64,000 nt of DNA, taken from positions 4,512,412-4,576,411 of the forward strand of contig NC_087385.1 of the NCBI RefSeq assembly GCF_963675165.1, in the 5' to 3' direction. Positions 5,256-27,800 of this stretch are shown in pieces (within the stretch, counting starts at the first letter, position 1; each line of letters opens with the position of its first letter). The notes beneath the pieces are model-generated. The model worked only from the letters and a program-made list of their open reading frames with translations, was not told the origin of the DNA and searched no databases. A program made the position numbers and the translations under genes. Source of the stretch: Halichondria panicea (Eukaryota; Porifera; Demospongiae; Suberitida; Halichondriidae).

Positions 5256-8200
5256 ATGCTTTGCAAAGTGCTCCTCGTCTCTCTAGTGCTGGCAGCTGTA
5301 GCTGTGCAAGTGCTGCTTGCAAGTGTGGCCTGTGCTAGTGCAGGAGGGAGCTGTGAGCCCATGTCTATCAGTAAGGTGAGCTGAGCTGAATAGCTGCAAT
5401 AATAATTCTGAGCTGCAACTTTTATAGCTATTGTCTAAACAGTGCTGCTTTCTATGGCCTTGGGGTAGCTAGCAGCATGCGCTTTCCCACGCCGTTAATC
5501 TACTATGTTATGTTTAGCTATATATGTGGTAGATGGTCGCAACCACTGACACGATATAATATTATTATCATTGATCCCCGGTTCAAAATTACTATACAAA
5601 CGTTATCGCTCAAAACGTTATCACTCAACCATTTTTTACACAAGTTTTTACATGTCATAAGATAAACTGCTCCTTTGAACTTAATTCAATATTCTCACCA
5701 TTTCAAAGTACTTCTGCAGTGTGTAAGTTTCAGTATAGTAGCCTGCTTTCATGTGTGTTTTACTTGTGTTACCCTCTTTACTAACCTCTTTGTACTATTC
5801 ACTGACAGGCTCTGTCTGACCCGACTGCAGGCCAGCTGGAGCATGGTGAGTTTCCTAACTTTAATAATTTGATTGACCCATACCACAGAAAATCTCCACA
5901 AAAGCCCCACTGTCAATTTTTGGAAAAATTTAGCAATTAAGGTTTCTTAGTGAATGTTGTTGCTGGTTGTGGGTATGTAGAGGGAGCTAGCATTGAAAAC
6001 ACATGATTATCACTTCCGTTTTGATTTCAATGGTTTTATCTTGATCGCAGAAGTCGTCCATGCAGTTGTGGAGAGAAACTACTTTAATCCCCCAGGTTAG
6101 TACACACAAAGATCTCAGTATTTTCAAAACACATTCAATAATTGATGGAACTGTTTATCAACTTGGAGCATGTTATGAGAACTATGCGCATATCGCAATA
6201 CTGATAGCCGTCAGAGGGATCCGATTATATCTAGTGCACACACATGGTATAATCATCCTTTGTGAATCTCACAGACACAACCACGTTCAATTGCCCCTCC
6301 CCCTCCGACAGTCTGCTTGAAGTGAAAAACTTGTCTGTGTCTCTGTTCCCTAATGCTGAGTATCCAGACTACTACAATCTCCTCCTTCAGTGGATATCGG
6401 ATGGTACGCAACTATTTCCATGAACTTACTATCATTGTAATTTGTCTTTTGCCGCAGGAAACTCTGAAGGGTACTTCATCCAATTGACAAAGGAGGGACG
6501 ACATAAATTCTACAATACTCAAATTAACAACCCTGTAAGTGTTGCAATAATGTTCACTTATATTTACATGTACATATTTTTTAATTTCATTCTCAGATGG
6601 TTACTAGTGTCCTACTGAAAGAAGTGACTTTTTATCCTTACTCTCCTAGCTCACTATCGATTCAAGTACAAGTAAGTTTATCTTTGTATTTATCAATAAA
6701 GTGCTCAGTGGTCTGTCTGTTTTAGCCCAAATCACGCAGCAGTTCTTGTGCCTCTGTAACGGTATCAGTGTCTGTGGACTTGTGTGATGCATTTGTATAC
6801 AATCAACACTGCTCCCAACGTAAGTCCCAACGCATTATCGATATGCATCACACAATTACGAATCGTCCCAACACAGGTGTTCAGCAATCCACGCCTGATA
6901 TAGCAGAATTTCAAGTCCAAACAACTTTGTTGTCTAGTGATCCACAGCTAATGAGCATGCATTTATCTTGGGAGACTCGTGATAAGAGTGTCATGATTGC
7001 CCTCACGTCAACTGGTCAAAAGAACACAGATTGCAGTAAGCCTGGTCGACAGCCACCCTGTTTCATTGCCAGCAACACGGTAAGTGCATGAGCTCACTCT
7101 GCATCGTAAGTAAATTGATTGATTATTTGTTTCTCTTCTTAGAATTCAGTGACTGTTTCTTTGTTGAATGCTTCCACTAAGTACACAGTCACTGTAAGTC
7201 CTTCAATCAGTGTTGCCTTGTCAGCAATGTTATGTACCCCCTTCGCACACAGCTTCATATATTCGACCCCTCCCCTTGTCATCCTAATTTAGTTCACCTT
7301 TTAGACGGATGTAGTAATGGCCGCTGTTGCAACGACTATTCTCCCATACCATTACCACTTCCAACCAATATAACGTCCACTTATACCACGCCTACTCCCT
7401 CCTCTGTCAACACACGAGTCACAACTTCACAAGCAAATTCTCATACAGAAGACACTCACACAGAAGACGCTCATACAGAAGACACACATACTCATACAGA
7501 AGACGCTCATACAGAAGACGCTCACACAGAAGACGCTCATACAGAAGACACCCATACAGAAGACGCTCATGCAGAAGACTTGCGTGCAGTGTATAGCAAC
7601 AATATTTCGCAAGAGAACTCTAGTGGTAAGCACAATTAATCTAGGGCATACCATTAAAGATTTTACTAAATCCCCAAAAGATGTTCTTGAAGGTACGAAC
7701 CACTAAACCAGTTTCAATTCCCCTCTATGAAAGCCACCTCTTAAGCCAACCACACAAGCCATGCACTTTCAATTCTCTCGCATACCCTCACAGAATAGCA
7801 CCTGTTAGTGACATCATGGTCTGTTTACATTCTTTGGGTAAACCTTGTACACCACTGTCCACTGTATGCCACCCACGTGCAGGCCTGGTGATTGTCGCCA
7901 TAGCAGTGCCCCTAGTCATTATTGTGGTCTCAGTGTGCATCATTGCAGTATCAGTGATTCTCTATAAGGCCTCCAAGAAACGAAAAAGGAGAGTACCTCC
8001 TACCCATGTGATGGCCAACAATCCCATTGTTGAATACCCTTCCTCCACCACGACACTTCCTGACATAGGAGAAACATCCATGGAGTCCCTGAACAATATT
8101 GAACTATCCCCTGTGAAGCCGCTAAACAGTCAATCAAGTCCTATCCGAGGTGTATCACCTGACAGTCCTTCTGTAGTAGTTCTATACTCTCCAAAGACAC

Positions 8201-8625
8201 CAAACGTTGAGATAAGAGATATTCTTGGAACGCTGGTAGTGGGATTGTGTCAATATGGCATCAACGCTAAGTCTCCAGACACCTGCGTCAGTGACAGTAT
8301 CTCTGCCTGGCTTGAGAGTGAGATGGAGAACTCTATCGTACTCCTTGTGTGCAACGAAGCCCTAAAGAGTGACTGGGAGTGTGAGAGGCCTAGCAAGCTG
8401 GTGTGTTCCCTCAGACAGCTGCTACACGGCAGTTTGGTGGATAGGGGACTCTCAAACTTTGCTACTGTGTTTATGGGCAAGGATGCAGAGAGTGGTTATG
8501 TGCCAAGTGCTTATCTCAAGCCCCAGAAGCAATTCACTGTCAGAGACATTAGTGATATTGATGATATATCACATTTTGTGTTTAAGATTCCACGTTACGA
8601 AGCATGTTACGAAGCATCATTTTAA
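5256..8625 (+). CDS. SEFIR-domain IL-17-receptor-like membrane protein 1
   Basis: Predicted type I membrane receptor that would signal through its SEFIR domain to CIKS/Act1-type adaptors (family inference). Exons: 5256-5375, 5809-5845, 6051-6095, 6275-6403, 6458-6534, 6597-6671, 6726-6819, 6877-7079, 7143-7193, 7253-7625, 7883-8625; phases close to give 648 residues. A signal peptide is visible (MLCKVLLVSLVLAAVAV). The Cys-containing beta-rich ectodomain is followed by a Thr/Pro segment and repeats of HTED(A/T). One TM segment lies near residues 403-428 (LVIVAIAVPLVIIVV), then KKRKRR. The SEFIR domain starts near 498 with VVVLYSPKTP and includes ENSIVLLVCNEALKSDWE. From about 7998 the last exon is nearly identical to those of SEFIR2 and SEFIR3, although the ectodomain is quite different. 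That suggests gene conversion or shuffling of the signalling end. The ligand is unknown. Confidence 0.85.
7441..7585 (+). repeat. In-frame 15-bp minisatellite (HTEDA repeats)
   Basis: About nine units of roughly 15 bp (ACAGAAGACGCTCAT and variants) encode HTEDA/HTEDT in the juxtamembrane stalk of SEFIR1. The units differ by single substitutions, and one has an HT insertion. It is probably a length-variable extracellular stalk, and nothing comparable is present in SEFIR2 or SEFIR3. Confidence 0.85.
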
Positions 8626-8719
8626 TATGTATTATAATTATGTTTTTTACTTTGTGATAATTTTTGTATGAGTATGGTCAGTCAGTAATTTTTTTTTTTT
8701 TTTTTTTTTTTTGCGAATT

Positions 8720-11700
8720 ATTTTTATCTCCATATATACCCCAATACTACATAATATTTACGTTCTATTAAATTAAATTTGGTCTTGGAACGAGTCATGC
8801 ACATGCGCAATATATTACTCATGTCCTTTGACATAATTATCTGCTCTATACAGACTATCTAAGCTCATGACAGCCTCAACATGTCTGTTCATTGGTCACA
8901 TCAGAGTGCATTACTAGTACTACTCACCTGCCTGCTCCACCATTTTACTGGAGGTGAGCTTATCTGCGGTTCAGCTATTGGAAACTACGACTGCAATCAT
9001 GTCGACATTGACCATATCTGCAAGGATGAGGTTTGTGGGTTTTAGCGTATGGAATTGTGGTAAATCTACCTGAAATCTAGACACACTCATTTAATGTATT
9101 TGTTTGTGTTTGTTGTTATATACCTCGGTGCACATGCGCCAGGGACGTACAGTAATCAGTTAATTTACATGTAGCTATAATTATTACTTGTTACTATCTA
9201 TCGTTTTATAAGCTGTAAACCTCCTTTCCATGCAGACACAACCCCCTCCTGTATGTCCCCCAGTGGCTCCGCTCTCTCGTGAGTTAAAGCATTGTGCACA
9301 ATGTAGCCAGTTGTCTGTGTTTAACCTATCTCAAAGTACTAGCTAATAAGGAGTATTTACTATGATTCCATTGTGTTGGTTGCAACCAGGAACTCCCTAT
9401 GGGGAATATATTTAGGTAGTGTACTAATTGAGATTTTATTCTCTTACAGTCAACACTGATGGCACTTACTTCAGAATAGGTGAGTCATATCCTGCTCACC
9501 GTACATGCTTGAGGCTATAATTATAGGCTGCTCTGCCTCACCAACAAATCAACAAGCAAGAAGCTCCACGACTGATGCACAGCTGTCACTAACGCCAGTC
9601 GCACACAATTGTTGGGAATACAACCTCACAGTGTCATGGACGTTCAATACAACTAGTAAGTACACCAATATAATGCTTTGTGTGTAGTCTATGTACACAT
9701 GTATGGTTCCCATGCTGTCTGTAGTTCCAACAGGATCAAGATATGAGTTAAAATATTTTAGTAGAAATGGAGATCTCATCCGCACAATATGCTCACAAGT
9801 GAGGACATCTCATTATTCGCTATTCGTGCAAGTATTTTCATTTTCTAGCAAATTGACTGGACTCGCAGTTCATTTGATGGATTGGAATTTGGGGAAGATG
9901 TACATGTAGTTGAAGTAAGAATGTATAGAACTGTCATGTACATGTGTGCAACAGAATTGACTATTGCAGTTAACTGTACTGGCTGCCAATGACTCTGAAT
10001 CTGTGTTGTTGGTGATAAGAACTGAATTAACTCATTCTCTGTCTTCATATTATGAAATTTTACCTGTCTCTCCATATCGCTGCGGTCTAGTGGGTAAGTG
10101 AATACAGTAGATACATTCAGACATGGTAGTAATGTTCTAATCTGTACAGAGAAGATACGAACCAGTCCTGTGACTAACCTCTTTCACACTCTAAGTTTGA
10201 AGGAGGGTACATACCGTGTGGAATTGACGTGGGAGCCACCCGCTCCAGTGGTACAATACATGATCCCTGTGACGTATTTTGTTACCCTATTCAACAGTTC
10301 ATTCTCGACTACAGTTCACACCAACCAGGTGCAGTTCCCTCAAAACAACAATGCTTATACTCTAACCATTGTCCCTTTTTCTACAGACTCAGATGGTTAT
10401 CTACTCCCTAGAACCCACGAGAGAGCACTTTATCAAGGTACCCATTCTTCATCAGACCTTGTGCTTGTCTCATGACCCACTAAAATTTAGTAATCCATTG
10501 TCACTACCCTTGATGTCATTACCTGCTCTTGCTGATTCAGGTAGAGCCCTTTGTGCCCTGTAGCTCTACTTGTGGGAGCAGTGAGAATCGCACAATACTA
10601 AGTGGTAAGTGATTGTTACCGGTACACTGTGTGTGAAGCTGTAGTACTTGATTTTCGTTGACACTGTGTTTTTGTCTCACAGCTCCTTTTACTTCACCGA
10701 ATATCTCACATATTGTAACACTCTCGCCGACTACCATTGAAGCTAAATGGAATGATATCCCAGAATCAGATCTGAATGGAATTATTTCACAGTACGAGGT
10801 CCGATACAAAGTTGTGAACGAAAGTATGTTAGATTCAATCTTCACTCGTAATCTGTCCGTCCTTCTATCTGATTTGAGAGCATCCACTGCGTACGAAGTG
10901 TCTGTACGAGCCTACACCAGTGTAGGGCCAGGTCCATTCTGCATGGCTGTTACAAACCAGACCATGGATGAAGAAGTAGCTACTGTTGATGTTGCAATTG
11001 TAGCTGGTGTCTCAACAGGTGTTGTTGTTGTTGCGGTCTCCTTCTGTGTGGTGTTGTTCATCACCGTACTCGTGTTGATTAGAAGAAAGACAGAGGAGGC
11101 GGAAGTGACATCTGATAATAGGGCCAATCTATCACGACTAGATATCTCAAAATCACCCAGTGAAGTAACATTTTGCTGTACAGAATCACCTCTTGATAAA
11201 GAATCACCTCTTGATAAAGAATCATTTCTTGATTCTTCATCTGATTACAGCTTTCCAATGTCACGTCCTACCCATGTGATGGCTACCAACAATCCCATTG
11301 TTGAATACCCTTCCTCCACCACGACACTCCCTGACATAGAACAAACATCCATTGAGTCCCTGAACAATATTGAACTACCCCCTGTGAAGCCGCTGAACAG
11401 TCAATCAAGTCCTATCCGAGGTGTATCACCTGACAGTCCTTCTGTGGTTGTTCTATACTCTCCAAAGACACCAACGTTCGAGATAAGAGATATTCTTGGA
11501 ACGCTGGTAGTGGGATTGTGTCAATATGGCATCAACGCTAAGTCTCCGGACACCTGCGTCAGTGATAGTATCTCTGCCTGGCTTGAGAGAGAGGTGGAGA
11601 ACTCTATCGTACTCCTTGTGTGCAACGAAGCCCTAAAGAGTGACTGGGAGTGTGAGAGGCCTAGCAAGCTGGTGTGTTCCCTCAGACAGCTGCTACATGG

Positions 11701-11940
11701 CAGTTTGGTGGATAGGGGACTCTCAAAATTTGCTACTGTGTTTATGGGCAAGGATGCAGAGAGTGGTTATGTGCCAAGTGCTTATCTCATGCCCCAGAAC
11801 CAATTCACTGTCAGAGACATTAGGGATATTGATGATATATCACATTTTGTGTTTAAGATTCCACGTTACGAAGCATGTTACGAAGCATCATAATATGTAT
11901 TATATGATTTTTACTTTGTGATAATTTTTTGTACAGTGCA
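8720..11940 (+). repeat. Tandem duplication unit A (contains SEFIR2)
   Basis: From the motif TCTCCATATATA...ACCCCAATACTA through the promoter, all introns and the coding exons, this unit matches unit B at 13163-16110 with only small indels and substitutions. Intron positions and phases are identical. It is a recent segmental tandem duplication. Confidence 0.9.
8881..11893 (+). CDS. SEFIR-domain IL-17-receptor-like membrane protein 2
   Basis: Exons: 8881-9030, 9237-9279, 9450-9479, 9527-9655, 9725-9798, 9849-9914, 9970-10093, 10150-10328, 10387-10437, 10541-10604, 10683-11893. Phases are consistent and give 706 residues. The ATG at 8881 starts a signal peptide (LLVLLTCLLHHFTG). The ectodomain has short Cys-bearing exons, then a fibronectin III-like module ending HFIKVEPFVPCSSTCG. 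A second clear FN3 module (about 304-400) holds EAKWNDIPE and TAYEVSVRAYTSVGPGPF. TM lies at about 408-436, followed by RRKTEE. The SEFIR domain starts near 558 (VVVLYSPKTP). The short intron 10329-10386 is supported by the paralogue, where it differs in length by 2 nt while the flanking codons stay conserved. A small coding duplication (SPLDKE twice) distinguishes it from SEFIR3. It is probably a receptor of immune or epithelial signalling; the ligand is unknown. Confidence 0.88.
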
Positions 11941-11944
11941 ACAA

Positions 11945-13161
11945 CCAAAGAGAGTAGATTTTTTTTTTTGGTACACATTTTTTACATTTTGTGGCATATC
12001 TTCTAAAGTAAAAGTGATATGATCTATTTGAGTGCAGGTACTGAAAGTTCAACTATTGGCGCTTCCATTGGACCACCACCTGTTACATCACATGACATCA
12101 TCAGTATAAAATGGCTGTCTGAAGATGTGTACTTCCGAAAATATGTTAGGAATAGAAGTAGCTTATTTGTTTGAGTTAAGATCTGAAATTTGTTGTGCAT
12201 GTACCTGAGTATATTGCTCATCTTTTGAGCTTCAACAGAAGTCTGGGCTACTAGTAAGTTCTGAGAAATACTGCATTTTGTTGTTTTTTGGTGGCAAATA
12301 TGTTAGGAATACAACTTTAGATTTTATATTAGTTAAGGTCTGATTTTTGAGCAGCATGTACTACAATAGTGTACTTTTCATCTGTACTAACTTACAGGAG
12401 TTAGGCTAGCCTCTTCTTTGCTAGAGCGGCCCATCTTGTCAAAAACAGTGCTTTTTATGACTTTTGGGGCGATTTGGCTACGTAGTAAGCTCAATTACCA
12501 CGCCCCTGTGACACAGAATGACCAACACCAACTGTGTATTTGCAGGTAGACATCACATGACCTTTGGATGTAGCAAATAACAACAAGATGATTTGTGATG
12601 TCACAAATCAATGAATATCATTGCTACGTCAGCAAAAGTAGCAAAACGGAGCAAAATCACCATTTTTGACAAGAAGGGCCGCTCTAGCAAAGATGAGACT
12701 TGTCTAGCTCCTGTAAGTTAGTACAGATGAATTCTATGCTATTGTAGTACATGCTCCTCAAAAATCAGACCTTAACTAGCATAAAATCGAAAGTTGTATT
12801 CCTAACATATTTGCCACCAAAAAACAACAAAATGCAGTATTTCTCAGAACTTACTAGCAGCCCAGACTTCTGTTGAAGCTCAAAAGATGAGCAATATAGT
12901 CAGGTACATACACAATAAATTTCAGATCTTAACTCAAACAAATAAGCTACTTCTATTCCTAACATATTTTCGGAGGTACACATCTTCAGACAGCCATTTC
13001 ATAGTGATGATGTCATATGATGTAACAGGTGGTGGTCCAATGGAAGCGCCAATAATTGAACTTTCAGTACCTACACTCAAATAGATCATATCACTTTTAC
13101 TTCAGAAGATATGCCACAAAATGTGAAAAAAATAATATAAAAAAAAATCTACTCTCTTTGG
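11945..13161. mobile_element. 1.2-kb foldback (giant inverted-repeat) element
   Basis: The left arm (about 11945-12447) and right arm (about 12660-13161) are imperfect reverse complements over about 500 bp. Both ends begin with CCAAAGAGAGTAGATTTTTT, read inward. About 210 bp of spacer separates the arms. No open reading frame of note exists; the two short mirror ORFs near 12024-12221 and 12887-13084 are simply the arms read outward and inward. The structure fits a non-autonomous foldback/MITE-like DNA transposon. It sits exactly between the two SEFIR duplication units, so it may have been involved in, or inserted after, the duplication. Confidence 0.85.
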
Positions 13162-13162
13162 A

Positions 13163-16110
13163 GTATTATCTCCATATAATTATACCCCAATACTAATGGC
13201 AAACATAATATTTACGTTCTATTAAATTAAATTTGGTCTTGGAACGAGTCATGCACATGCGCAATATATTACTCATGTCCTTTGACATAATTATCTGCTC
13301 TATACAGACTATCTAAGCTCATGACAGCCTCAACATGTCTGTTCATTGGTCACATCAGAGTGCATTACTAGTACTACTCACCTGCCTGCTCCACCATTTT
13401 ACTGGAGGTGAGCTTATCTGCGGTTCAGCTATTGGAAACTACGACTGCAATCATGTCGACATTGACCATATCTGCAAGGATGAGGTTTGTGGGTTTTAGT
13501 GTATGGAATTATGGTAAATTATACCTGAAATCTAGACACTCATTTGTTTATGTTTATTGCTATATGCCTCGGTGCACATGCGCCAGGGACATACGGTAAT
13601 CAGTTAATATACATGTAATTGTAGCTATAGTTAATACTAGAGCTATCGTTCAATATTTTATAAGCTGTAAACCTCCTTTCCATGCAGACACAACCCCCTG
13701 TATGTCCCCCAGTGGCTGATCTCTGTTGTAAGTTAAAGCATTGTGCACGATGTAGCCAGTTGTCTGTGTTTAACCTATCTCAAAGTACTAGCTAATAAGG
13801 AACATTTACTGTGTTGGTTGCAACCAGGAACTCCCTATAATTATGGGGAATATATTTAGGCAGTGTACTAATTGAGATTTTATTCTCTTACAGACAACAA
13901 AGATGGCGAATACTCCACAATAGGTGAGTCATATCCTACTCATCACCGTACATGCTTGAGGCTATAATTATAGGCTGCTCTGCTTCACCAACAATTCAAC
14001 AACAAGCAAGAAGCTCCAACACTGATGCACAGCTGTCACTAACGCCAGTCGCACACAATTGTTGGGAATACAACCTCACAGTGTCATGGACGTTCAATAC
14101 AACTAGTAAGTACACCAATATAATGCTTCGTGTGTAGTCTATGTACACATGTATGGTTCCCATGCTGTCTGTAGTTCCAACAGGATCAAGATATGAGTTA
14201 AAATATTTTAGAAATGGAGATCTCATCCGCACAATATGCTCACAAGTGAGGACATCTCATTATTCGCTATTCGTGCAATGTATTTTCATTTTCTAGCAAA
14301 TTGACTGGACTCGCAGTTCATTTGATGGATTGGAATTTGAATGGGGGGAATATATAGTTAAAGTAAGAATGTATAGAACTTATCATGTACATGTGTGCAA
14401 CAGAATTGACTATTGCAGTTAACTGTACTGGATGCCAATGGATCTGAGTTGTTGGTGATGAGAACTGAAATAACTCATTCTCCATCTACATATTATGAAA
14501 TTTTACCTGTCTCTCCATATCGCTGCGGTCTATAGTGGGTAAGTGAATACAGTAGATACATTCAGACATGGTAGTAATGTTCTAATCTGTACAGAGGAGA
14601 TACGAACCAGTCCTGTGACTAACCTCTTTCACACTCTAAGTTTGGAGGAGGGTACATACCGTGTGGAATTGACGTGGGAGCCACCCACTCTAGTGGTACA
14701 ATACATGATCCCTGTGACGTATTTTGTGACCCTATTCAACAGTTCATTCTCGACTACAGTTCACACCAACCAGGTGCAGTGCACTCAAGACAACAATGCT
14801 TACACTAGCCATTGTCCCTTTTTCTACAGACCCAGATGGTTATCTATTCCTTAGAACCCACGAGAGAGCACTTTATCAAGGTACCCATTCTTCATCAGAC
14901 CTTGTGCTTGTCTCATGACCCACTAACCCATTGTCATTGCCCTTGATGTCATTACCTGCTCTTGTTGATTTAGGTAGAGCCCTTTGTGCCCTGTAGCTCT
15001 ACTTGTGGGAGGAGCAATCGCACAATAATTATACCTAGTGGTAAGTGATGTACATTGTGATTGTGCAAAACACTGTGCATTAGTAATATTTGTCTCTGTC
15101 TCACAGCTCCTTCTACATCACCGGACATCTCGCATACTGTAACACTCTCACCTACTACAAACCCAATCCCGCCTACTATAACACCCTCACCTACTACAAG
15201 CCCAACATCGATCACAAACAAGACGGAAGTAGCTACTGCAATTGTAGCTGGTGTCTCAACAGGTGTTGTTGTTGTTGTTGTTGTCTCCTTCTGTGTGGTG
15301 TTGTTCATCGCCGTATTTGTGTTGATTAGAAGAAAGACAGAGGAAGCGGAAGTGACATCTCATGATAATAGGGCCTATCTATCACGACCAGATATCTCAA
15401 AATCACCCAGTGAAGAAACATTTTGCTGTCCAGAATTACCTCTTGATAAAGAATCATTTCTTGATTCTTCATCTGATTACAACTTTCCAATATCACGTCT
15501 TACCAACAATCCTATTGTTGAATCCACTTCTTCCACCACGACACTCCCTGACATAGAACAAACATCCATGGAGTCCCTGAACAATATTGAACTATCCCCT
15601 GTGAAGCCGCTGAACATTCAATCAAGCCCTATCCAAGGTGTATCACCTGACAGTCCTTCTGTGGTTGTTCTATACTCTCCAAAGACACCAACGGTCGAGA
15701 TAGAAGATATTCTTGGAACGCTGGTAGTGGGACTGCGTCAATATGGCATCAGCGCTAAGTCTCCAGACACCTGCTGTGTCAGTGACAGTATCTCTGCCTG
15801 GCTTGAGAGAGAGGTGGAGAACTCTATCGTACTCCTTGTGTGCAACGAAGCCCTAAAGAGTGACTGGGAGTGTGAGAGGCCTAGCAAGCTGGTGTGTTCC
15901 CTCAGACAGCTGCTTCATGGCAGTTTGGTGGATAGGGGACTCTCAAAATTTGCTACTGTGTTTATGGGCAAGGATGCAGAGAGTGGTTATGTGCCAAGTG
16001 CTTATCTCATGCCCCAGAACCAATTCACTGTCAGAGACATTAATGATGTTATTGATATATCACACTTTGTGTTCAAGATTCCACGTTACGAAGCACGTTG
16101 CGACGTATAA
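13163..16110 (+). repeat. Tandem duplication unit B (contains SEFIR3)
   Basis: Second copy of the unit at 8720-11940, with matching promoter, introns and exons. Differences include an ATAATTAT insertion near 13840, a 2-nt insertion at 14531-14535 that affects the reading frame, and loss of most of the second FN3-coding region. Confidence 0.9.
13335..16110 (+). CDS. SEFIR-domain IL-17-receptor-like membrane protein 3 (possibly disrupted)
   Basis: Paralogue of SEFIR2 with the same signal peptide. Exons: 13335-13484, 13688-13727, 13894-13923, 13974-14105, 14175-14245, 14297-14362, 14419-14527 or 14538, 14595-14773, 14830-14880, 14974-15040, 15107-16110. At the seventh exon a 2-nt difference from SEFIR2 puts TAG in frame at 14533-14535 and breaks the phase if the conserved donor at 14539 is used. 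Splicing at an upstream GTCTAT (14528) would restore the phase. So the gene is either a pseudogene, truncated, or uses a shifted donor. The second FN3 module is replaced by a short Thr/Pro stalk (TLSPTTNPIPPTITPSPTTS). TM (VVVVVVSFCVVLFIAVFVLI), RRKTEE and a full SEFIR domain (LLVCNEALKSDWE) remain intact, which argues against long-standing decay. Confidence 0.75.
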
Positions 16111-16275
16111 TTTTATGGAGATGTATAACATTCTGCAACCAAAACTGTGTGCATTTTTTTGATAGAATCACAACTTTGCATACAGAAAAATGTTGTATGG
16201 ATTCCACATAGCTAGTGTAGATCTACCAGTGCGTGAGATATTCTGTTAAGTAGTAAGTTTGACTAGATTGTGAGA

Positions 16276-19200
16276 ATGGGGCTAGATATAATACTGGTGA
16301 CAATGCTGATACTATTGGGAGTGTGTAAAGCTGCTGCGATTAACACCAGGAATGATACTCTGTTGGGGCTGTGCCTGCAAGATGATTCCCACTGTACAGA
16401 GCTTGGACCAAATGAAACCTGTAGGAGTCGAGGGAATGAGCAAGCTGAGAGATACAACACTGGGATATGTGTGAGTCAGTGTGAGTGGTGTTCATTGTGG
16501 TTTGGCAACGTGGGGGTGCTCAGAATTTGATGATATTCATAAAAATTAATCATACCAAACAAAGTTGTGGTTTATTAGCATTGTAGCTAGATCTACATAC
16601 ATAATTATGTAGCTGACATCGTATAAATATAGAGAGTAGACGTTTCTTGTTCAGTTGGTGCACATTGAACCATTCCTCTTGTGTGTTTGTGATTGTGAGT
16701 GTATAGAGAAGCTATACGTACTGTGAACACAGCGGCTTGTATATACAGAAGCATCATATTGCATGGTTACTTTGTGGTTACCACAAGGCTTTGTTGAAAT
16801 GTCAAGCATGTAACAGCTCTAGGTTGAAGCCATCCTGTAATCAGTTACACATTATAACTGATTCCCTTCTATATACATGTTATTCTTTTCATATACCACC
16901 ACAGAGGTACGAGCAAACAATTCAAACTTCAAGTAAGTTCTCCCTGTATCATGTATTCTGTATACTGTACTGTACTAAGAAACATCAAGTAAAATTCTCA
17001 CTTATTGCTATTTGCATCTACACATTTATTGCTATTTGCATCTACGCATTAACTGTTATGCATGCACAGCCTGTAAGTACAAACCTGGAGCATCACCGGA
17101 ATCACTAGAAGAGGCCCTATGTCCCCAAGCTAGTGAATGTGAGCCTGAGCCAAATGCCGTATGGCCAGTGATGAACTACACACTGATACACGACAACAAT
17201 AATCCAGAATTCTTTATTGTTGATATTCGTTGGCAGGAAGGTAAGCATATACCATAGTTTAAATAATTATGTCATCTGCCTCTAGCTCTGCGTGGTAAGC
17301 ATACCATAGTTTAAAGATGTCATCTGCCTCTAGCTCTGCGTGAAGTGTATCAATTGATATATTTATCTGGTATACCAGTATATATATACATAACGTGTGT
17401 TATGCTATGATACGTGCAGTGAATGTGTCGGGGTACTCAATAACTGTGTCCCTCCGGCAGTGGAGTTGTCCTGTTGGGGAAGTGTACCTCCAGTGCGGCA
17501 CAACTGATCTCACCTCAGTAAGTCAGTACACTAGCAATAAACAACACTCTGGCATGTACTGTGTGCAGGGCTCCAATGGATTCTTATATACCCACATACG
17601 AGGGTACCATCAAAACGAGCAGTCCAAAGACGGGCAGCTTTTTATCAAGGTAATAGACCACCACCCTCACTTAATTTAGCTGTGTACCCTATCTAGCTGA
17701 CTCCCCACGGCTGGTGTGATGGCCCCCAGCTGAGTCTGGATATACCTGAAGCCTGTTACAGTCTCTGTCCAGGAGCTTGCTCTGTCTGTGAAGAAGGTGA
17801 AACTTTAGATTGACGGAATTTAATCAAAGTTGCTAATAATCTCTCATTGTGTAGATGAATCTGATCCAGCCCTTCCAACTGAACTCTCAGTCTCGCTCTG
17901 TTGGAGCCCCGTTAGCAATATGAGCACAGCTACTGTTGCATGGCAATCGAACAGAACATACTACAGTGCCTACCCCAACCAGACTTACTATGCAGCTGTG
18001 TTCAGAGATAATAAGATTGTCTCCAGACATATTGAGATTGTAGGACGAGTACGTTGATTTTGTAGTTGATTGAGAATTTTTAATTAATTTCTCTCTTCTC
18101 CTTAGACCAATGTTACACTGCACAACCTCTCACTAAACCACAGCCATAAATATGTAATCAAAGTAAGCTCAGTATTTCATATGATAAACTAATTTCAACA
18201 CGGTTACACTATTCCCGTGTAGGTCTGGCCATTTGATTGCAGGTGTGGGCACATCTCTGTTCAAAAAGAATTCTCTTTGGGTAAGTAGTTGCTTTATTAG
18301 GCTGTCATTGTTGTTTACATTTCATACGTACACAGGCAGCACCAGCACTCCCCTGTGTCCTGGTTATGCTACCACAACTACTCGTACCAGCTTCACCACT
18401 AATCCGACTTCCACACATATCTCGCTTCACACCAGCTCTCCTACCCTCACCCTCTCCACCACTCTCACACCCACACATATCTCGCTCCACACCAGCTCTC
18501 CTACCCTCACCCTCTCCACCAGCTCTCCTACCCTCACCCTCTCCACCAGCTCTCCTACCCTCACCCTCCACACCAGCTCTCCTACCCTCACCCTCTCCAC
18601 CACCCTCACACCCTCACAGACCATTCCCTTCCCAAGCTCCACTCCTTTCACATCTTTCACTGACTGGCTGTACTTACTCCTCTTCTTTGTCATTGCTGCC
18701 TCTGTTACATTCTTCATCATTGTAATCATAATTTATCGCTTCCGATATCAAAATTCGCGCCTACCTTTCAACGACTCGACCAACAGCCCCTCCCTGACTC
18801 CACAACCACTGACTACAAACGTGCTACTGGTTTATTCCCTCAGAACTTCAACTGAAGATATTGAGAATATTTTAGCAAATTTTGCTGTTCCATTGCAACT
18901 ATACGGGATACAGGTGATATTCTACGACATGCTGTGTGGTCAAGTGGGTATTCCCCAATGGATGGAAAATGCTGTCACTCAGAGCAGCAAAGTGTTTTTG
19001 GTGTGTAACAATGAGTTCAAAACAGAATGGGAGGATCCATCTGTTTCACCACTGGAGGGAAACTTAGTGCATATTCTCAAACAGAACTTTTTTGCTCATG
19101 TCAGAACAAGTTCAGACTACATGTCGAAGTATGCTCTACTGTTTATGAGCTCTCGTGAGAGTGAAAAGTGCATTGCCAGCAGCTACCTACTGAACTTGCA

Positions 19201-19297
19201 ACGATTTGTGGTGGACCCAGTCGACCCCTCCAGGCTAGACCAAGTGGCAAGGTTTATTACAAACACTAAATCGTACATTCTGGACATGGGAGACTGA
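16276..19297 (+). CDS. SEFIR-domain IL-17-receptor-like membrane protein 4
   Basis: Exons: 16276-16470, 16905-16932, 17070-17240, 17420-17517, 17569-17649, 17697-17796, 17855-18048, 18106-18162, 18223-18280, 18336-19297; phases close to 647 residues. Signal peptide MGLDIILVTMLILLGVCKAAA. The ectodomain is Cys-rich (CYSLCPGACSVCEE) with an FN3-like unit ending KYVIKVWPFDCRCG, which parallels HFIKVEPFVPC of SEFIR2. A Ser/Thr/Pro mucin-like stalk of repeated SSPTLTLST precedes the TM (YLLLFFVIAASVTFFIIVII). The SEFIR domain includes VLLVYSLRTSTEDIENILANF and SSKVFLVCNNEFKTEWED. It is clearly more divergent than the SEFIR1-3 group and is likely an older member of the same cluster. Ligand and pathway are inferred only by family. 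Confidence 0.85.
17241..17342 (+). repeat. Intronic ~50-bp tandem duplication including the splice donor
   Basis: Two adjacent copies begin GTAAGCATA(TA)CCATAGTTTAAA and end CTAGCTCTGCGTG. The first copy starts at the 5' splice donor of SEFIR4 exon 3, so the duplication also copied a donor-like GTAAGC at about 17294. The second donor would add an in-frame-ambiguous piece to exon 3 if used. Confidence 0.85.
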
Positions 19298-19560
19298 GAC
19301 AATTGCTTAGTGTGTATGTTTCATTCATCTGCCACCCCTGCTGTAAGGAAGTGATTGATCGCTTACCCATCCCTGTTCATGTGTGTGTACATTTTTATAG
19401 CATCTACAGTCATTGTGGTTTCTAGTATCTGTGGTGGTTTTGTAAATTACCACAATTGGGTAGAGGGTGTGGCTGGGATCACGGAAAGGTCACGGAAAGG
19501 TCACTGAGAGTAGTTTAATTTTACGTTTGTCAACAAACAAACAAATCTGAAGGCAGGAAG

Positions 19561-22186
19561 ATGGAGAAACCTTGTGAAGCACCTCAGTCTACGATTAACG
19601 AGAAGACACTACTAGTTAACACAGCCATTGTAGGGAAAAAGCCATCAGAGTCAAGCAGCCATTCTCCAGACAACCTCCGCACCTACTGGTGGAGATGGAT
19701 TGTTCTGTGTATCTTCGCTCTCAATCTAGCTATGACCAACATCATATGGATACCCTCAGCCCCCATAGCAAACACGATCATCTGCTACTATGATGTGTCT
19801 CTGTTCTGGGTGAATTCCCTGTCGGAAGTGTACATGCTCACGTACATAATCCTCCTCTTCCCCGCGATGTGGATGTTGGACAAGTATGGACTGAGACTGA
19901 GTGTAATGCTAGGAGCAGGCTTTGATGCAGCAGGGGCCGCACTCAAACTGGCAGGCACAGGTCAGACTGCATGCACTCACTGTTGATGCATCATCACAGA
20001 CAAACTACCTTAAGGTCGGTATTATTAACGGGTTGTTATTTTAGCGAATTTAGCGAATTGACATTTTTTCGCTAAATCAACCACTCGCTAATAATACAAA
20101 CACGTCAGCATTACGTACAATTAGAGAGTAATATTGATTCAAATCGCTAAAATTAGTACCCGCCAATAATACCAACCTTAAGGTACCTACTCTTTGTATA
20201 ATTATGACTGTATCTAATTATGTACCCATTGTTGTGATGATAATTATCATGACCCCATACCACAGGCTCCAACTTTTTCTGGCTCCTTATGTTTGGTCAA
20301 TCACTGGCGTCACTCTCCAACGTCTTCATCTGGACAGCTGCTCCTCTCCTTTCTGAGGTGTGGTTTCCACCAAAAGAGAGGGCCACAGCCACAGCTATTG
20401 GGGGAGCCATAGCACCTCAGGTAAGTCAACATTTTTCGTGTATTAGCATTTATTGACTGAAAAACCTTTTTAGTTAGGCATTCTGCTTGGTCTGGGATTG
20501 ACCCCATTCATAGTGCACAGTGACCTGAATCTCCAGTTTGCAGTATGCGGGAACACAACCAATCCTCCCTATGCCAGCCCGGGGGAAACTAAAGAATGGT
20601 CCGACTTCATATTCTCCAGACTCTTGTATTTCAATATTGGAGTGGCTGCATTGGGCCTCATTGTGTTCATCTTGACCATATTTTGTGAGTAATTTGAGGT
20701 ATTTCTTGTCTCTGCACATAATGATGCCTTCTTGCTCACTCTTGGCCAGTATTCCTACTAATGTCAAACAGTCCCTAGTTTCCTTCTAATTCATCCGGGT
20801 GTGTCCTTTGCTTTTCTCCCATTCTCTTATCACATAGCTATACGTGTGTATCGCTAGCAGAGTATACATTATGTGTCACAGGGTTTTGTGATGCCCCGCC
20901 CACTCCTCCGAGCATCTCTCGTAAGCTGGAGAGCGAACACAAACAGTCGACAGGTTTTCAGCAGTTCAAAGAATTCCTCATCACCACACTAGGGGCATTC
21001 AAGAATGTCTATTTTGTTCTCTACATGATTGTAGCTGGTGAGCCTGCAACAGTTCTAGATGCGCTGTTCTATTATACTTTACATATACACACAGCCATAA
21101 TCATAGCAGTTGCAGGCTCTGTAGTGTCTGTCATTAATGAAGTGGTCCATCCTTACTTTCCGGTGAGCTAGTTTCATTGCATTATTCTAATTATAATTAT
21201 GTATGTCACAGGACTATGATGAGGAAATAGGGTACCTTGGCATCACTGCACAAGCAACCTCTATTCTCTCCATGTTTGTAGCTGGTCGTGTGCTAGATTG
21301 GACCAAGGCATTTTAGTGAGTCCAATATGTTCTGTGAGTGGTACAATTACTCATGTTGCACGATAATTTGCTCTGCACAGTGCTGTGAATCTGGTCGTGT
21401 GCATACTCTCTGTAATCTGTGTGACTCTCTTCGCTGTGTTGATTCTGTTCCAGGACAATTTCTACCTCCTCTATATACCCTTTGTTTTCTTGGGGTAAGG
21501 TTTACTCACCACACACCAGTATAGCCATGGGGATTTATTTCCGAAATGGGCCTGTTTTGATAGCTAATAATTTAGTGCTCGTAATTTGAGTGAGGATTTT
21601 TGTAGCCCTTTGAAAAGCCTATATCTTATTTAGATCAGTCATGATTGCTTCCGTCCATTCTCGAAGAAGCATATGCTATAATTATGACAACATGCTGTCC
21701 TAACACAGATTGAGCATGGCTTCTTTTCAAGCAGTGGCTTATGAGTATGCTATTGAGATGACCTACCCCCTACCAGAGGGTACCTCCAGTGGCCTCATCA
21801 ACTCTGGATCACAGGTACATGTACTGTACATTCGTCAATGCTTTAATGTTTGTGTTTGGAGGGGAATCAGTTCTAGCATACACAAAAACAAAGGTTGTAT
21901 AGAGACAAATTTGTTGATTTTGGCTGAGATAATAACATCATCTTTAGAGCTATAATTATACTGAATTATGTCTATTTTCAGCTCGTACTCTACCTAACTT
22001 GTATCTGTATACCCCGTGCAGATTCTCTCGATTATTACAATCAGCTTTGTAGGTCACTTTGCCGATAAGAGCGTGGACAATGTTCCAGTGGGATTGTGGT
22101 TCATGGTTGGACTCACTTCTCTGGGCTGCCTCATCACCATCTTTGTCAGACCAGAACTCAAAAGAGTTAAAATTGACAAAAAATAG
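19561..22186 (+). CDS. SLC49/FLVCR-like major facilitator transporter, copy a
   Basis: Exons: 19561-19960, 20266-20420, 20474-20684, 20882-21037, 21095-21162, 21212-21315, 21381-21494, 21709-21814, 22022-22186; 492 residues. The family's roles include haem, choline or ethanolamine transport, but the substrate here cannot be read from sequence. It has a cytosolic N-terminus of about 45 residues, then WRWIVLCIFAL and about 12 hydrophobic segments. Family-like blocks are WIPSAPIAN, YDVSLFWVNSLSEVYML, MWMLDKYGLRLSVMLGAGF, LLSEVWFPPKERATATAIG, and the late YPLPEGTSSGLIN. Exon 1 uses donor GTCAGA. A MITE lies in intron 1. It is followed head-to-tail by a close paralogue with identical exon phases. 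Confidence 0.9.
20006..20185. mobile_element. 180-bp MITE in transporter intron 1
   Basis: The terminal inverted repeats are TACCTTAAGGTCGGTATTATT at the left and its near reverse complement ending AATACCAACCTTAAGGTA at the right. Interior sub-terminal inverted motifs are TTTAGCGAATT / CGCTAAAATTAGTACCCG. It has no coding capacity and is probably a non-autonomous DNA transposon. Confidence 0.85.
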
Positions 22187-22455
22187 CGCACAGGCATAGT
22201 TTTGTATTTTGTATGTACATGTTATTATTTAATGTACACATGTAGTCTATTAGCTACATATGTACTGGATCCAAGCACATTATGCAGCAGAGCAGTGTCC
22301 CATGACTTGTTGTCCCATGACTTGTTGTTAATTGTGTATACATGTACATAAAAAAGTGGGCGTGACTAGATTCTAGCATAGATTGTGTTTATAGTCACCT
22401 TTGGTAGCTAGCTAGCTAGCTGAGCTCAGCTGATTTATTTATTACGTGTACATAC

Positions 22456-24645
22456 ATGGATGGGGGCAGTAACAGTCAAGATGTTGTGCTATCTCATGAA
22501 AAAGCACCTCTGCTCAGCTCAACCAAAGTAGACACAGCTACAGACAGGTCTATCCAAGCAACCCAACCGTCTGCTGAACCAGTTATTCGCACATACCTGT
22601 GGAGATGGATTGTCCTTATCATCTACTCAGTCGTCTCAATTTCAGTCAACCTAGTATGGATATCATCAGCCCCTATAGCAGACATAATGACCTGCTACTA
22701 TGATGTGTCCGTGTTCTGGGTGAATGGACTGTCTGAGGTGTACATGCTCATGTATTTGATCGCTTTGTTCCCAATTGTCTGGCTTCTAGATAAATATGGG
22801 CTAAGACTGACAATGATATTAGGGGCTGGTTTCAATGCTGCAGGGGCTGCACTCAAAGTGGCAGGCACAGGTAAGGAAGTGTATAGTCTCGCCGGGCCAT
22901 ATACTTTGAAGGGAGCAACAATTAATTTCTCCCCTTCAAAGTATCTATGGCCTGTACGGGCCGTGCTGTGAGATTGACTGAACAGCCATTTCAGTTCTAG
23001 GGAATCATGCTCTTGTTGCATTGTGAATTGTGAATAGAGTGCTATTTTACAGGGTCAAATTATTTTTGGATAACTATGTTTGGTCAGACTCTGGCGGGAT
23101 TGTCGGATGTGTTTATCTGGACAGCTGGTCCTCTCCTTTCTGAGGTGTGGTTTCCATCAAGAGAGAGGGCCACAGCCACAGCTATTGGAACAGCCATTTC
23201 AGTCCAGGTGAGTTGCAATAAGATAGTTTGTCTTATTTATATATCTGTGCATGTGGTGCCCCTCATTATTGACAATCGCTTGTCAACAAAGGTTGTAACA
23301 GCATCCAGTTTTGGTAGGGCCCATAGTACCCTTCTTAAAGTAATCTCCATTTGCAGTCTGGTGTTCTGCTTGGTCTGGGGCTGACTCCGTTCATAGTGCA
23401 CAGTGACCTGAGTCTCCAGTTTGCAGTGTGCGGGAACACAACCATTCCTCCCTTTGCCAACCCGGGGGAGACTAAAGAATGGTCCGACTTCATATTCTCT
23501 AGACTCTTGTATTTCAATATTGGAGTGGCTGCATTGAGCCTTCTTGCATTTATTTTCACTCTTATAGGTGAGCTGATAGATATTTCTTTGATGATAGTAC
23601 CAATGTGTGTTTTAATGACCACATGGCTGTATCTTTTCTACAGCTTTCCACAATGCCCCGCCCACTCCTCCAAGCATCTCTCGTAAGCTAGAGAGCGAAC
23701 ACAAACAGTCGACAGGTTTTCAGCAGTTCAAAGAGTTCCTCATTACCACACTAGGGGCATTCAAGAATGTACACTTTGTTCTCTACATGATTGTTGCTTG
23801 TAAGTGGCTTCTTGCATCTTATAATTATAATCACTGTAATTTGCCATAGCAATAATCCTAGCGATGGCTTGTACTATGGAATCCGTCATCAACGAAATAG
23901 TCCATCCCTTTTTCCCGGTAAGGTTACTGGTGTTCCTGTTCTGTCTATTCAAATGCATTTTAACAGGACTATGATGAGCAAATAGGGTACCTTGGGATCA
24001 CTGCACAAGCAACCTCTATCGTTGCTATGTTTGCAGCAGGCATTGTGCTTGATTGGACCAAGGCATTCTAGTGAGTGTTAAACATTGCTAGTAGCTTCAT
24101 GAATTTGAACAGCTCATCATTGTTCTTTGCATTATTTTTTCCCCAGTGCTATGAATCTGTTTGTGTGTGTACTCTCTGTCGTCTGTGTGGTAGCATGGGC
24201 AGTGTTAATTCTGTTCCAGACAAATTTTTACCTACTGTACATACCCGCCGTACTTTTAGGGTAAGCTCCTCCAATTATCCCCTCTGACCATTATACCAAT
24301 CCTTATAACATTTACATAGACTTAGTATGGCTTCCTTCCTTGCTGTGGCTTATGAGTATGCTATTGAGATGACCTATCCCCTCCCGGAGGGTACCTCCGC
24401 TGGCCTCATCAATGCTGGATCACAGGTGAGCTAGCATAACTATAGCACAACTTTTATTTCATGTGTTTTTCCCCCACCCTCAGCTGTTCTCCATTGTCAT
24501 CATAACTATAATGAGCTACTTTAACAGTGTGCACATGGAGTCAGTGGGATTGTGGTTCATAGTTGGAATCACTGCTCTGGGCTGCCTCATCACTATCTTT
24601 GTCAAACCAAAACTCAGAAGAGTAAACATTGAGAAAAAACAATAG
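22456..24645 (+). CDS. SLC49/FLVCR-like major facilitator transporter, copy b
   Basis: Exons: 22456-22870, 23053-23207, 23357-23567, 23644-23799, 23850-23917, 23967-24070, 24147-24260, 24320-24425, 24484-24645; 496 residues, with the same intron phases as copy a. Conserved blocks are WISSAPIAD, CYYDVSVFWVNGLSEVYML, WLLDKYGLRLTMILGAGF, LLSEVWFPSRERATATAIG, SLQFAVCGNTTIPPFANPGE and YPLPEGTSAGLINAGSQ. Exons 3 and 4 are almost identical to those of copy a, whereas the N-terminus and last TM exon have diverged. Conversion between copies is possible. The substrate is unknown. Confidence 0.9.
22885..22965. repeat. Intronic hairpin
   Basis: GGCCATATACTTTGAAGGG(A) at about 22898 is answered by CCCCTTCAAAGTATCTATGGCC at about 22931-22952, giving a ~20-bp stem with a short loop in intron 1 of transporter copy b. 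It may be a very short MITE remnant. Confidence 0.6.
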
Positions 24646-24803: not shown

Positions 24804-27800
24804 TTAACTGTCCTCCTGGGGTGGAGAATCATCCCCTTCCTCCTTGGGTGCTACCTTTTCAGCAACCCCTTCCTCCTTGGGTGCTAACTGTTCACCTTCC
24901 TCCTTGGGTGCTGTCTCTTCAGCAACCCCTTCCTCCTTGGGTGCTGTCTCTTCAGCAACCCCTTCCTCCTTGGGTGCTGTCTCTTCAGCAACCCCTTCCT
25001 CCTTGGGTGCTGTCTCTTCAGCAACCCCTTCCTTCTTGGGTGCTAACTCTTCAGCAACCCCTTCCTCCTTGGGTGTTGTTTCTTCAGCAACCCCTTCCTC
25101 CTTGGGTGTTATCTCTTCAGCAACCCCTTCCTCCTTGGGTGCTGTCTCTTCAGCAACCCCTTCCTCCTTGGGTGCTGTCTCTTCAGCAACCCCTTCCTTC
25201 TTGGGTGCTAACTCTTCAGCAACCCCTTCCTCCTTGGGTGCTAACTCTTCAGCAAACAATTCGTCAATCTCTTTGATAGCATGCTCATTACTGGAGCTCC
25301 CATGGACTGCGTTTTCGACAATGGACAGACCGAACTGAGCCCGGATTGAGTTAGGTTGTTGATCCTTGGCCTCCTCTGGGTTCACAGGTCCCATCAGAGC
25401 CCTCCAGCCCAGCACTGCATCCTCACGAGACAACACCATGAACAAAGACTCACCACTGCAGCAGCAGAACACAGTCACATAATAATAGTCATGGAAATGT
25501 ATAGTATAAAACTGTGGGTCATAAGGACAACTACTGTACGTAGCACACTGTGGGTATAGTGGGTGTATCATTATCTCACGTTGTCATCATTGTGGTGAGC
25601 TCTTCAAAGTACTCAGAGTCCTTGTGTCCACTGTATAACTGCTCAGCCATCTCCTTGGTCAGCTGGGCCTTCTTGCTCATGGATATCTTAAACCCAGACT
25701 CCTCAATCTTAGACAGAATATCTTCTGCAGGTAGAAGACAAAAGTGATGCTGAAAATAAATGACAACTTGTAGTGGAAATCAGGAACCTATTACCAGACG
25801 ATGGTCGATATAATAAGAATTTCACCACGTGCACAAACCTTGCTCGTTGAAAGCTCCTGGCTTGATGACTGCCAACGTATTCTCCACTGGAAAAAAGAAC
25901 CCGATTTCTTTCTCAGCCTCGTCAGGATTGGACGACCCGTGGAGCGGGTTGATTTCTGCCCCCTCCACTGAGAACTCAGCTCGAAGATTGGGTTGTGCGT
26001 CGTCAGACCTTCACAAATTATATGCACTAAATTGTAAACTGCTATTATTATTAGCTTACGATTCAGGGTCCTCTTGCTCAGCTTTTTCAACAATCTTTGG
26101 ACCCAATAGCTTCCTCCACTCAGAAACTGCCTCCTCTCTTGCAAGACAGAGAGCCAGCATGGGGCCACTATGTGTACAGTTGCAGTTGCTTGAATGTATG
26201 TGTTGTGATATCAAGATATTGTTGTTACCTGGACATGCTGGTGGTGAGGGAGTCATAGAAGTCTTTGCCTTCATGTTCCTTATAGAACTCCATGGCTTGT
26301 TCCTTAGTGAGTGTAAGTTCCTTTTGAAAGGCCACTTCAAATCCAGCTTCATTAATTTTCTCCATTATAGCCTCTGCAGCAAAATTTTATACTTACGTTT
26401 ACCACTAGTATCTATGTATCTCACCTTTGTGCATGGCCAATGCCTCGGGGCGAATTAGAGCAAGGGTCTTCTCAATAGGAGGCTCAGTACCCGGTACCCA
26501 TGGCACTTTAAATCGGGGCAGAAAAAAGGCCAATTCTCGAGCAGCTGTTTCCTGAGAGTCACTGGCATGTACTGCATTCATCTTAGCATCTGTACCAAAG
26601 GTTGCTCGCAAACTGAGGAAAAATGTGATATAACATGAATCAATATCACACGAGTGTACCTCTCAGGGGCTTCTGTTTTTGCCAGCTCCACATCTTTTGG
26701 CCCAATGACAGTTCGTAGGTCCTCCAAGACACCTTCTCCAGTGTCACCTTTGGTTAGTACCAGCGTCATGCACGGGCCACTGCTCATGAACTCAACCAGC
26801 TCCTCAAAATGATCCTACACGATGTGGGAAATTGACATACAATCATGATTATTATATTGCAGATATACCACAGAATGCCGAGAGTTTTAGATCTTAGCTT
26901 ACCACTCCTTCATGCTGCTTGTAGAATTCAGCTGCCTCCTCTTTGCTAAGAATCCTCTCTTCCATGGCTAACACTTCCATTCCCTCAGCTTTCAACTGTA
27001 AAGTACCCATGTACATACCACATTCACTCAATTAAAGGGTCTTACCCTTTCCACAATTTCGTCAATTTTCCCAGCCTGGACAGCGTCTGGTTTGATGACC
27101 ATGACGGTGCATTCCTTGCGAGTTGGTTCAGGCCTCTGTTCCTCAACTGGCTCCTCCTCCACCACTTCATCCTCCAGCACCACCTCTTCAGCATCCAGAC
27201 TCTCGTCCACAATCTGAATAAGAAGTAGTAAATACAGCAGAATTCTCAGTGCCTTCTCGGTGGCTGACATTATTTTAATCACGCTTACTGGAGTTCTTTC
27301 AATGCCCTCGTCGATGACCTTGTGCTCTATTTCCAGCTGTTTCTTAATATTTTTCTCGAGTTGAGGCCCCATTGCCCCTCTCACCACAGACACCAAAACA
27401 CCACCCTACAAGAGAACACAGTGAGAGCATTTATAAGAGACCAGATATCCGTATAACTGTAGGGCTAGATCTACATCACGGTCATGATTATTGATTACTC
27501 ACTGAGTACATGAGGAAAGTTGGTTCAGAGTGCCCCCTGTATGGCTCCAGGAAATCAATGGTGTTGCTCTTTGCCTGTAGGTGGAGGTGTAGAAATTTAT
27601 AGTAAAAATTAATAGGTAAACTTACAATAGCAAATCTGAGCAAATCATCTCCGAGCTCATTCTTGAGTCTCCTGAATAGCCCAGTCACAGCCTTGCACGG
27701 TCCACACCACTCAGTGTAAATGTCCATCACTGGAGAGTGTGAGAATGAGTATAAGTATCAATGTACAGCTAGCTAGCATACCTTGGAGTCCTTCCTTTGA

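Follow-up and report, generated by a model that had tools for sequence, protein, structure and literature searches.

The receptor gene cluster

Within the window (the whole stretch of 64,000 nucleotides analysed here), four adjacent, receptor-like genes, all on the plus strand and referred to below as genes 1 to 4, occupy positions 5256-19297 (Table 1). Their models were spliced by hand, with GT/AG ends at every intron and with most introns measuring 47-80 nt; in genes 1, 2 and 4 the resulting reading frame, distributed over 10-11 exons, is open from end to end. The presence of four neighbouring genes on the same strand, as proposed in the initial annotation, is therefore borne out by the splice models. 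According to hydropathy, the products of genes 1, 2 and 4, as well as that of an additional receptor gene found elsewhere in the genome (L014; see below), contain one N-terminal and one strong internal hydrophobic segment, the latter being the transmembrane (TM) segment, and would fit a type I single-pass plan with a predicted signal peptide; in genes 1, 2 and 4 the cytoplasmic domain comprises about 150 residues in the spliced models. The part of the protein close to the membrane differs from gene to gene, consisting of HTED repeats in gene 1, of a fibronectin type III (FN3) domain in gene 2 and of a Ser/Thr-rich repeat in gene 4. The common receptor plan originally ascribed to all four genes thus holds for genes 1, 2 and 4, which are open and show the expected hydropathy, and fails for the literal product of gene 3.

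Table 1. Positions in the window of the receptor-like genes and of their principal features
Feature	Position	Strand	Description
Gene 1	5256..8625	+	11 exons, 648 aa; predicted signal peptide, Cys-containing ectodomain, HTED-repeat stalk, one TM, SEFIR
HTED/AED repeat stalk of gene 1	7423..7575 (approximate)	+	From translation
Tract common to genes 1 and 2	7995..8665	+	95.4% identity; juxtamembrane part, SEFIR, start of 3'UTR; blastn and sliding identity
Gene 2	8881..11893	+	11 exons, 706 aa; two FN3-like domains and a third, canonical FN3, one TM, SEFIR
Canonical FN3 of gene 2, membrane-proximal	10709..10936	+	Pfam fn3 1.2e-9, 38.6 bits
SEFIR of gene 2	11438..11890	+	Homology to SEFIR of gene 4 and L014
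Gene 3	13335..16110	+	Interrupted tandem duplicate of gene 2; literal product 201 aa (predicted signal peptide and D1)
In-frame TAG in exon 7 of gene 3	14533..14535	+	2-bp insertion ('TA') relative to gene 2
SEFIR-coding stretch of gene 3	15655..16107	+	Open, downstream of the stop codon
Gene 4	16276..19297	+	10 exons, 647 aa; Cys-rich ectodomain, two FN3-like segments, Ser/Thr-rich repeat stalk, one TM, SEFIR
SEFIR of gene 4	18815..19294	+	Pfam SEFIR above cut-off

Gene 3 and the evolution of the cluster

Sequence comparison identifies genes 2 and 3 as the two members of a recent tandem duplication, with an identity of 89-100% across the reported blocks; the membrane-proximal FN3 of gene 2 is missing from gene 3, where its place is occupied by a Thr/Pro stalk. 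Since the 2-bp insertion puts a TAG in frame at position 14533, gene 3 probably no longer makes a receptor: in the model homologous to gene 2, this stop precedes the exons for D2, TM and SEFIR, and the product, as read literally, would be a secreted D1 fragment of 201 residues. The sole in-frame alternative donor scores -4.4 bits, as compared to 3.1 to 11.3 bits for the 29 donors of genes 1, 2 and 4. The extra bases, and the TAG with them, may be an assembly error.

The SEFIR ends of genes 1-3 had been described as nearly identical, and indeed the DNA identity of their SEFIR exons is about 93-97%. Strong conservation was considered as the cause of this identity, and dropped in view of the sharp edges of the tract common to genes 1 and 2; this tract, 670 bp long, begins just past the TM segment and stops in the 3'UTR, and is flanked by DNA that cannot be aligned. 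These edges make the SEFIR tract of gene 1 look like the outcome of gene conversion or of a recombination event, and not of conservation. As to the proposed divergence of ectodomains and stalks, the stalks do differ; the four genes do not, however, represent four independent designs, genes 2 and 3 being a recent duplicate.

Two further observations concern this pair. The segment 8792-9041, which includes the promoter side and exon 1 of gene 2, is 100% identical to its counterpart in gene 3, whereas much of the remainder differs by 3-15% or more, and this contrast suggests a recent local gene conversion at the 5' end. Between the two genes lies a foldback element (11961-13147), composed of two 506-nt arms, 92% complementary, and of a 175-nt spacer, which may have been involved in duplicating the gene.

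The cytoplasmic SEFIR domain

The cytoplasmic domain of these receptors is a SEFIR domain, as judged from profile searches, homology and structural modelling. The SEFIR of gene 4 reaches 25.5-28 bits against a Pfam cut-off of 23; genes 1-3 gave no match to Pfam SEFIR, and their domains are recognised by homology to that of gene 4 (32-35% identity, E 1e-9 to 4e-13), L014 being matched as well. The SEFIR of L014 itself scores 18.6 bits, under the Pfam cut-off. An AlphaFold model was obtained for L014, with the four SEFIR sequences of the window as alignment, and its SEFIR region has a pLDDT of about 80; among the VIA structural matches listed, which are taken up by SEFIR and TIR entries, the best are with prokaryotic SEFIR (Z 15.3 and 14.4), followed by the SEFIR of human IL-17RA and by an ACT1/IL-17R assembly (Z 13.1 each). 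When the SEFIR profile was compared with PDB sequences, weak matches only were obtained, prokaryotic SEFIR and TIR among them. The description of the genes as SEFIR/IL-17R-like receptors is therefore upheld by Pfam in gene 4, by homology in genes 1-3 and by the fold of the paralogue L014; the profile search that had been suggested succeeds for gene 4 and not for genes 1-3.

The ectodomains

The extracellular part is less amenable to classification. The membrane-proximal FN3 of gene 2 is the only one above the Pfam cut-off, so that of the one or two FN3 modules originally recognised a single one stands at this level; D2 of gene 2 falls just short (23.3 bits versus a cut-off of 25), D2 of gene 1 is a weak fn3 match (16 bits) and the ectodomain of gene 4 has no Pfam match. 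D1 of L014 was modelled by AlphaFold as strands, with a pLDDT of about 70. On the basis of the weak Pfam scores and of this strand pattern, the ectodomains other than the canonical FN3 of gene 2 may be described as FN3-like.

Their assignment to the D1/D2 kind of the IL-17 receptors is less certain. No match to the Pfam models IL17R_fnIII_D1/D2 was found in the window genes or at their genomic place; the comparison by hhalign of an ectodomain profile with IL-17RA and IL-17RB, whose sequences were verified against PDB chains, was not significant; and the alignment of single exons yielded nothing usable for the identity of the ectodomains. The local alignment of gene 4 with human IL-17RA has a Z of 3.9 versus shuffled sequences and ends at the same place in D2, this being one among eight comparisons (p 0.01), and the corresponding alignment of gene 1 gave no signal. 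Given that the D1/D2 tests are negative or weak, an IL-17R ectodomain is not claimed here as proven.

A fifth receptor and candidate ligand and adaptor genes elsewhere in the genome

The search for related genes covered the whole chromosome-scale assembly (131 Mb, 39 contigs). A fifth SEFIR receptor, L014 (also L023), is located on contig C10 (286120-287895); it encodes 680 residues and is intronless, as opposed to the 10-11 exons of the window genes, and is probably a retrocopy.

Seven IL-17-like ligand genes, unlinked to the receptor genes, form two clusters on contigs C3 and C15. The Pfam IL17 domain PF06083 is found in two genes on C15 and in four on C3, six of the seven members being matched at E<=10; the best of them, on C15, scores 38.9 bits (cut-off 24), and the other five are weaker. 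A profile built from the seven ligands, searched against the whole PDB, matches only IL-17F (E 1.2e-4) and IL-25; for a ligand model of low pLDDT (40.6), every one of the 50 Foldseek matches listed is either a chain of the IL-17 family or comes from the entry of an IL-17 complex. These genes are thus predicted members of the IL-17 cytokine family, with an IL17 domain and a predicted cystine-knot fold. In the C3 cluster (1463998-1474032; L025, L026), four IL-17-like genes of type A alternate with one intact and two broken genes of type B.

Candidate adaptors were identified at two sites. On contig C4, CARD (33 bits), SEFIR (44 bits) and Death (25 bits) domains are matched by Pfam in neighbouring, separate exons; on contig C8, SEFIR occurs in three copies, with a Death domain confirmed in two, and one of these loci (L047) is a single open frame containing both domains. 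Combining SEFIR and Death, the loci on C8 and C4 are predicted ACT1/CIKS-like adaptors.

Two signs mark the genome as that of a demosponge. The assembly carries, on contig C2, a cluster of three silicatein-type active-site motifs, with no match in the control, and a translated stretch has silicatein alpha as its best PDB match; the best identity to the Antennapedia homeodomain in the genome is only 49%, with no Hox-like homeobox.

Relationship to known systems

The predicted plan of the sponge genes (type I single-pass, putatively FN3-like ectodomain and cytoplasmic SEFIR) is common to the IL-17 receptor family, including IL-17RA-RE, IL-17RD/SEF and ILCR-1/2 of C. elegans, and so is the presence in one genome of IL-17-type ligands and SEFIR adaptors; the differences reside in the sponge ectodomains, which are not recognised by Pfam IL17R_fnIII_D1/D2, and in the addition of a canonical FN3 (gene 2) and of repeat and mucin-like stalks. 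The DD-SEFIR adaptor plan has been reported for non-amniote ACT1 (PMC7190641) and a SEFIR-Death adaptor for Trichoplax (PMC6321704). As in these adaptors, SEFIR and Death occur together, within a single protein on C8 and in neighbouring exons on C4; the C8 protein differs in its Pro-rich linker and its SEFIR-before-Death order, and the C4 locus in the addition of a CARD. A transmembrane SEFIR protein of Trichoplax likewise unites TM and SEFIR in a non-bilaterian; the available portion of that report (PMC6321704) describes no detected FN3 and names no ligand, whereas both FN3 and ligands are found here.

Among sponges, 1-2 SEFIR sequences have been counted in the genome of the demosponge Dysidea avara, and in the available portion of that source they figure only as a domain count, without receptors or ligands (PMC12909245). 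The published surveys consulted here record no IL-17 cytokine from Porifera. In Amphimedon, no IL-17 was found either by Huang et al. 2015 (PMC4517768) or by Saco et al. 2021 (PMC8353272); the latter authors indicated Cnidaria as the oldest phylum with IL-17 and mentioned a single Pfam entry from Amphimedon for which no genomic position could be established (PMC8353272). IL-17 has been described as the only cytokine family common to vertebrates and invertebrates, arisen in ancient eumetazoans (PMC13105070). In two expression studies on sponges, IL-17 figures only as the name of a KEGG pathway. Searches of the open-access literature turned up no description of IL-17 receptor or ligand genes from a sponge. 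The locus had been put forward as a candidate for an undescribed system; the kind of protein is in fact a known one, the IL-17 receptor, and any novelty may lie in the host, the genome being that of a sponge and carrying IL-17 ligands and adaptors.

Interpretation of the cluster and of its proposed pathway

We consider it likely that the cluster represents members of a sponge IL-17 receptor family, belonging to an axis of ligand, receptor and SEFIR adaptor; such a pathway seems to be present in sponges because receptors, IL-17-type ligands and matching adaptors share one genome. By analogy with the known family, a secreted, dimeric IL-17-type cystine-knot cytokine would be bound by the ectodomains of a pair of receptor chains; an adaptor of the SEFIR-Death or CARD-SEFIR-Death type would then be recruited by their paired SEFIR domains in the cytoplasm, and would start signalling of the TRAF/NF-kB type. 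It is on this analogy that we infer ligand binding by the ectodomains, receptor dimerisation, adaptor recruitment and a role in immunity.

The initial annotation had read the cluster as a recognition family in expansion, its signalling output being conserved, and a related proposal is that the receptors recognise patterns directly, their variable ectodomains binding microbial or self molecules and their SEFIR output being borrowed from the IL-17 receptor family. The great divergence of the ectodomains of genes 1, 2 and 4, which remain below the Pfam IL17R models, and the variable, repeat-rich stalks would suit this proposal. In the genome, however, only five SEFIR receptors were found, one of which (gene 3) is broken, as well as genes for IL-17-type ligands, and in the sole recent pair, genes 2 and 3, dN/dS is below 1 and about equal in the ectodomain (D1-D2, 0.69) and in the SEFIR (0.57), as calculated according to Nei-Gojobori with gene 3 read through a frame-keeping donor. 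Diversifying selection on the ectodomains was thus given no support by this pair, which bears no sign of faster ectodomain evolution. With five genes, similar dN/dS in the two parts and an identity of gene 1 that is confined to a tract, the evidence gives no support to a recognition family in rapid diversification, and the claim of an expanding one is for the most part not sustained; direct pattern recognition itself appears improbable.

A still smaller chance is given to the view of the cluster as a decaying remnant, in which, after tandem duplication and gene conversion, no more than one or two receptors still work and the other copies are broken. It would account for the interruption of gene 3, for the FN3 deletion that separates it from gene 2 and for the broken type-B IL-17 copies on C3, but genes 1, 2 and 4 are fully open across their 10-11 exons and the dN/dS of the SEFIR, although calculated from few changes, is below 1 (0.36-0.57). 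That the cytoplasmic domain is TIR-like or otherwise Rossmann-type, and the IL-17R label wrong, is very hard to credit: Pfam SEFIR does miss genes 1-3 and many TIR domains match the L014 model at Z 11-12.7, yet gene 4 exceeds the SEFIR cut-off, none of the receptors passes that of Pfam TIR, and the best four structural matches listed for L014 are SEFIR or IL-17R/ACT1 chains, TIR domains following at Z 12.7 and lower.

If the cluster is read as part of an IL-17 axis, we lean, with somewhat less assurance, towards the view that a complete axis in demosponges predates the split between sponges and other animals, instead of being eumetazoan in origin, and that the SEFIR output has been kept while ectodomains and stalks have changed beyond the reach of current models. 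That a single demosponge assembly contains ligands as well as receptors and adaptors likely moves the origin of the axis back, and the axis becomes testable, with named genes, in an animal devoid of neurons and gut.

Other features of the window

Downstream of the cluster, two similar starts of MFS-like transporters lie in tandem (19519-19986 and 22420-22971), with a weak match to Pfam MFS_1. On the minus strand, two related open reading frames sharing a PAR.G.LGI motif (38191-38853 and 50810-51757) are perhaps retroelement remains, the second having no match in a Pfam search; the open frame at 48434-49273, also on the minus strand, contains repeats of 15 protein letters. A further minus-strand frame (24804-25583) encodes a nucleoside diphosphate kinase domain (69 bits), followed in the same frame by many EGVAEETAPKE repeats.
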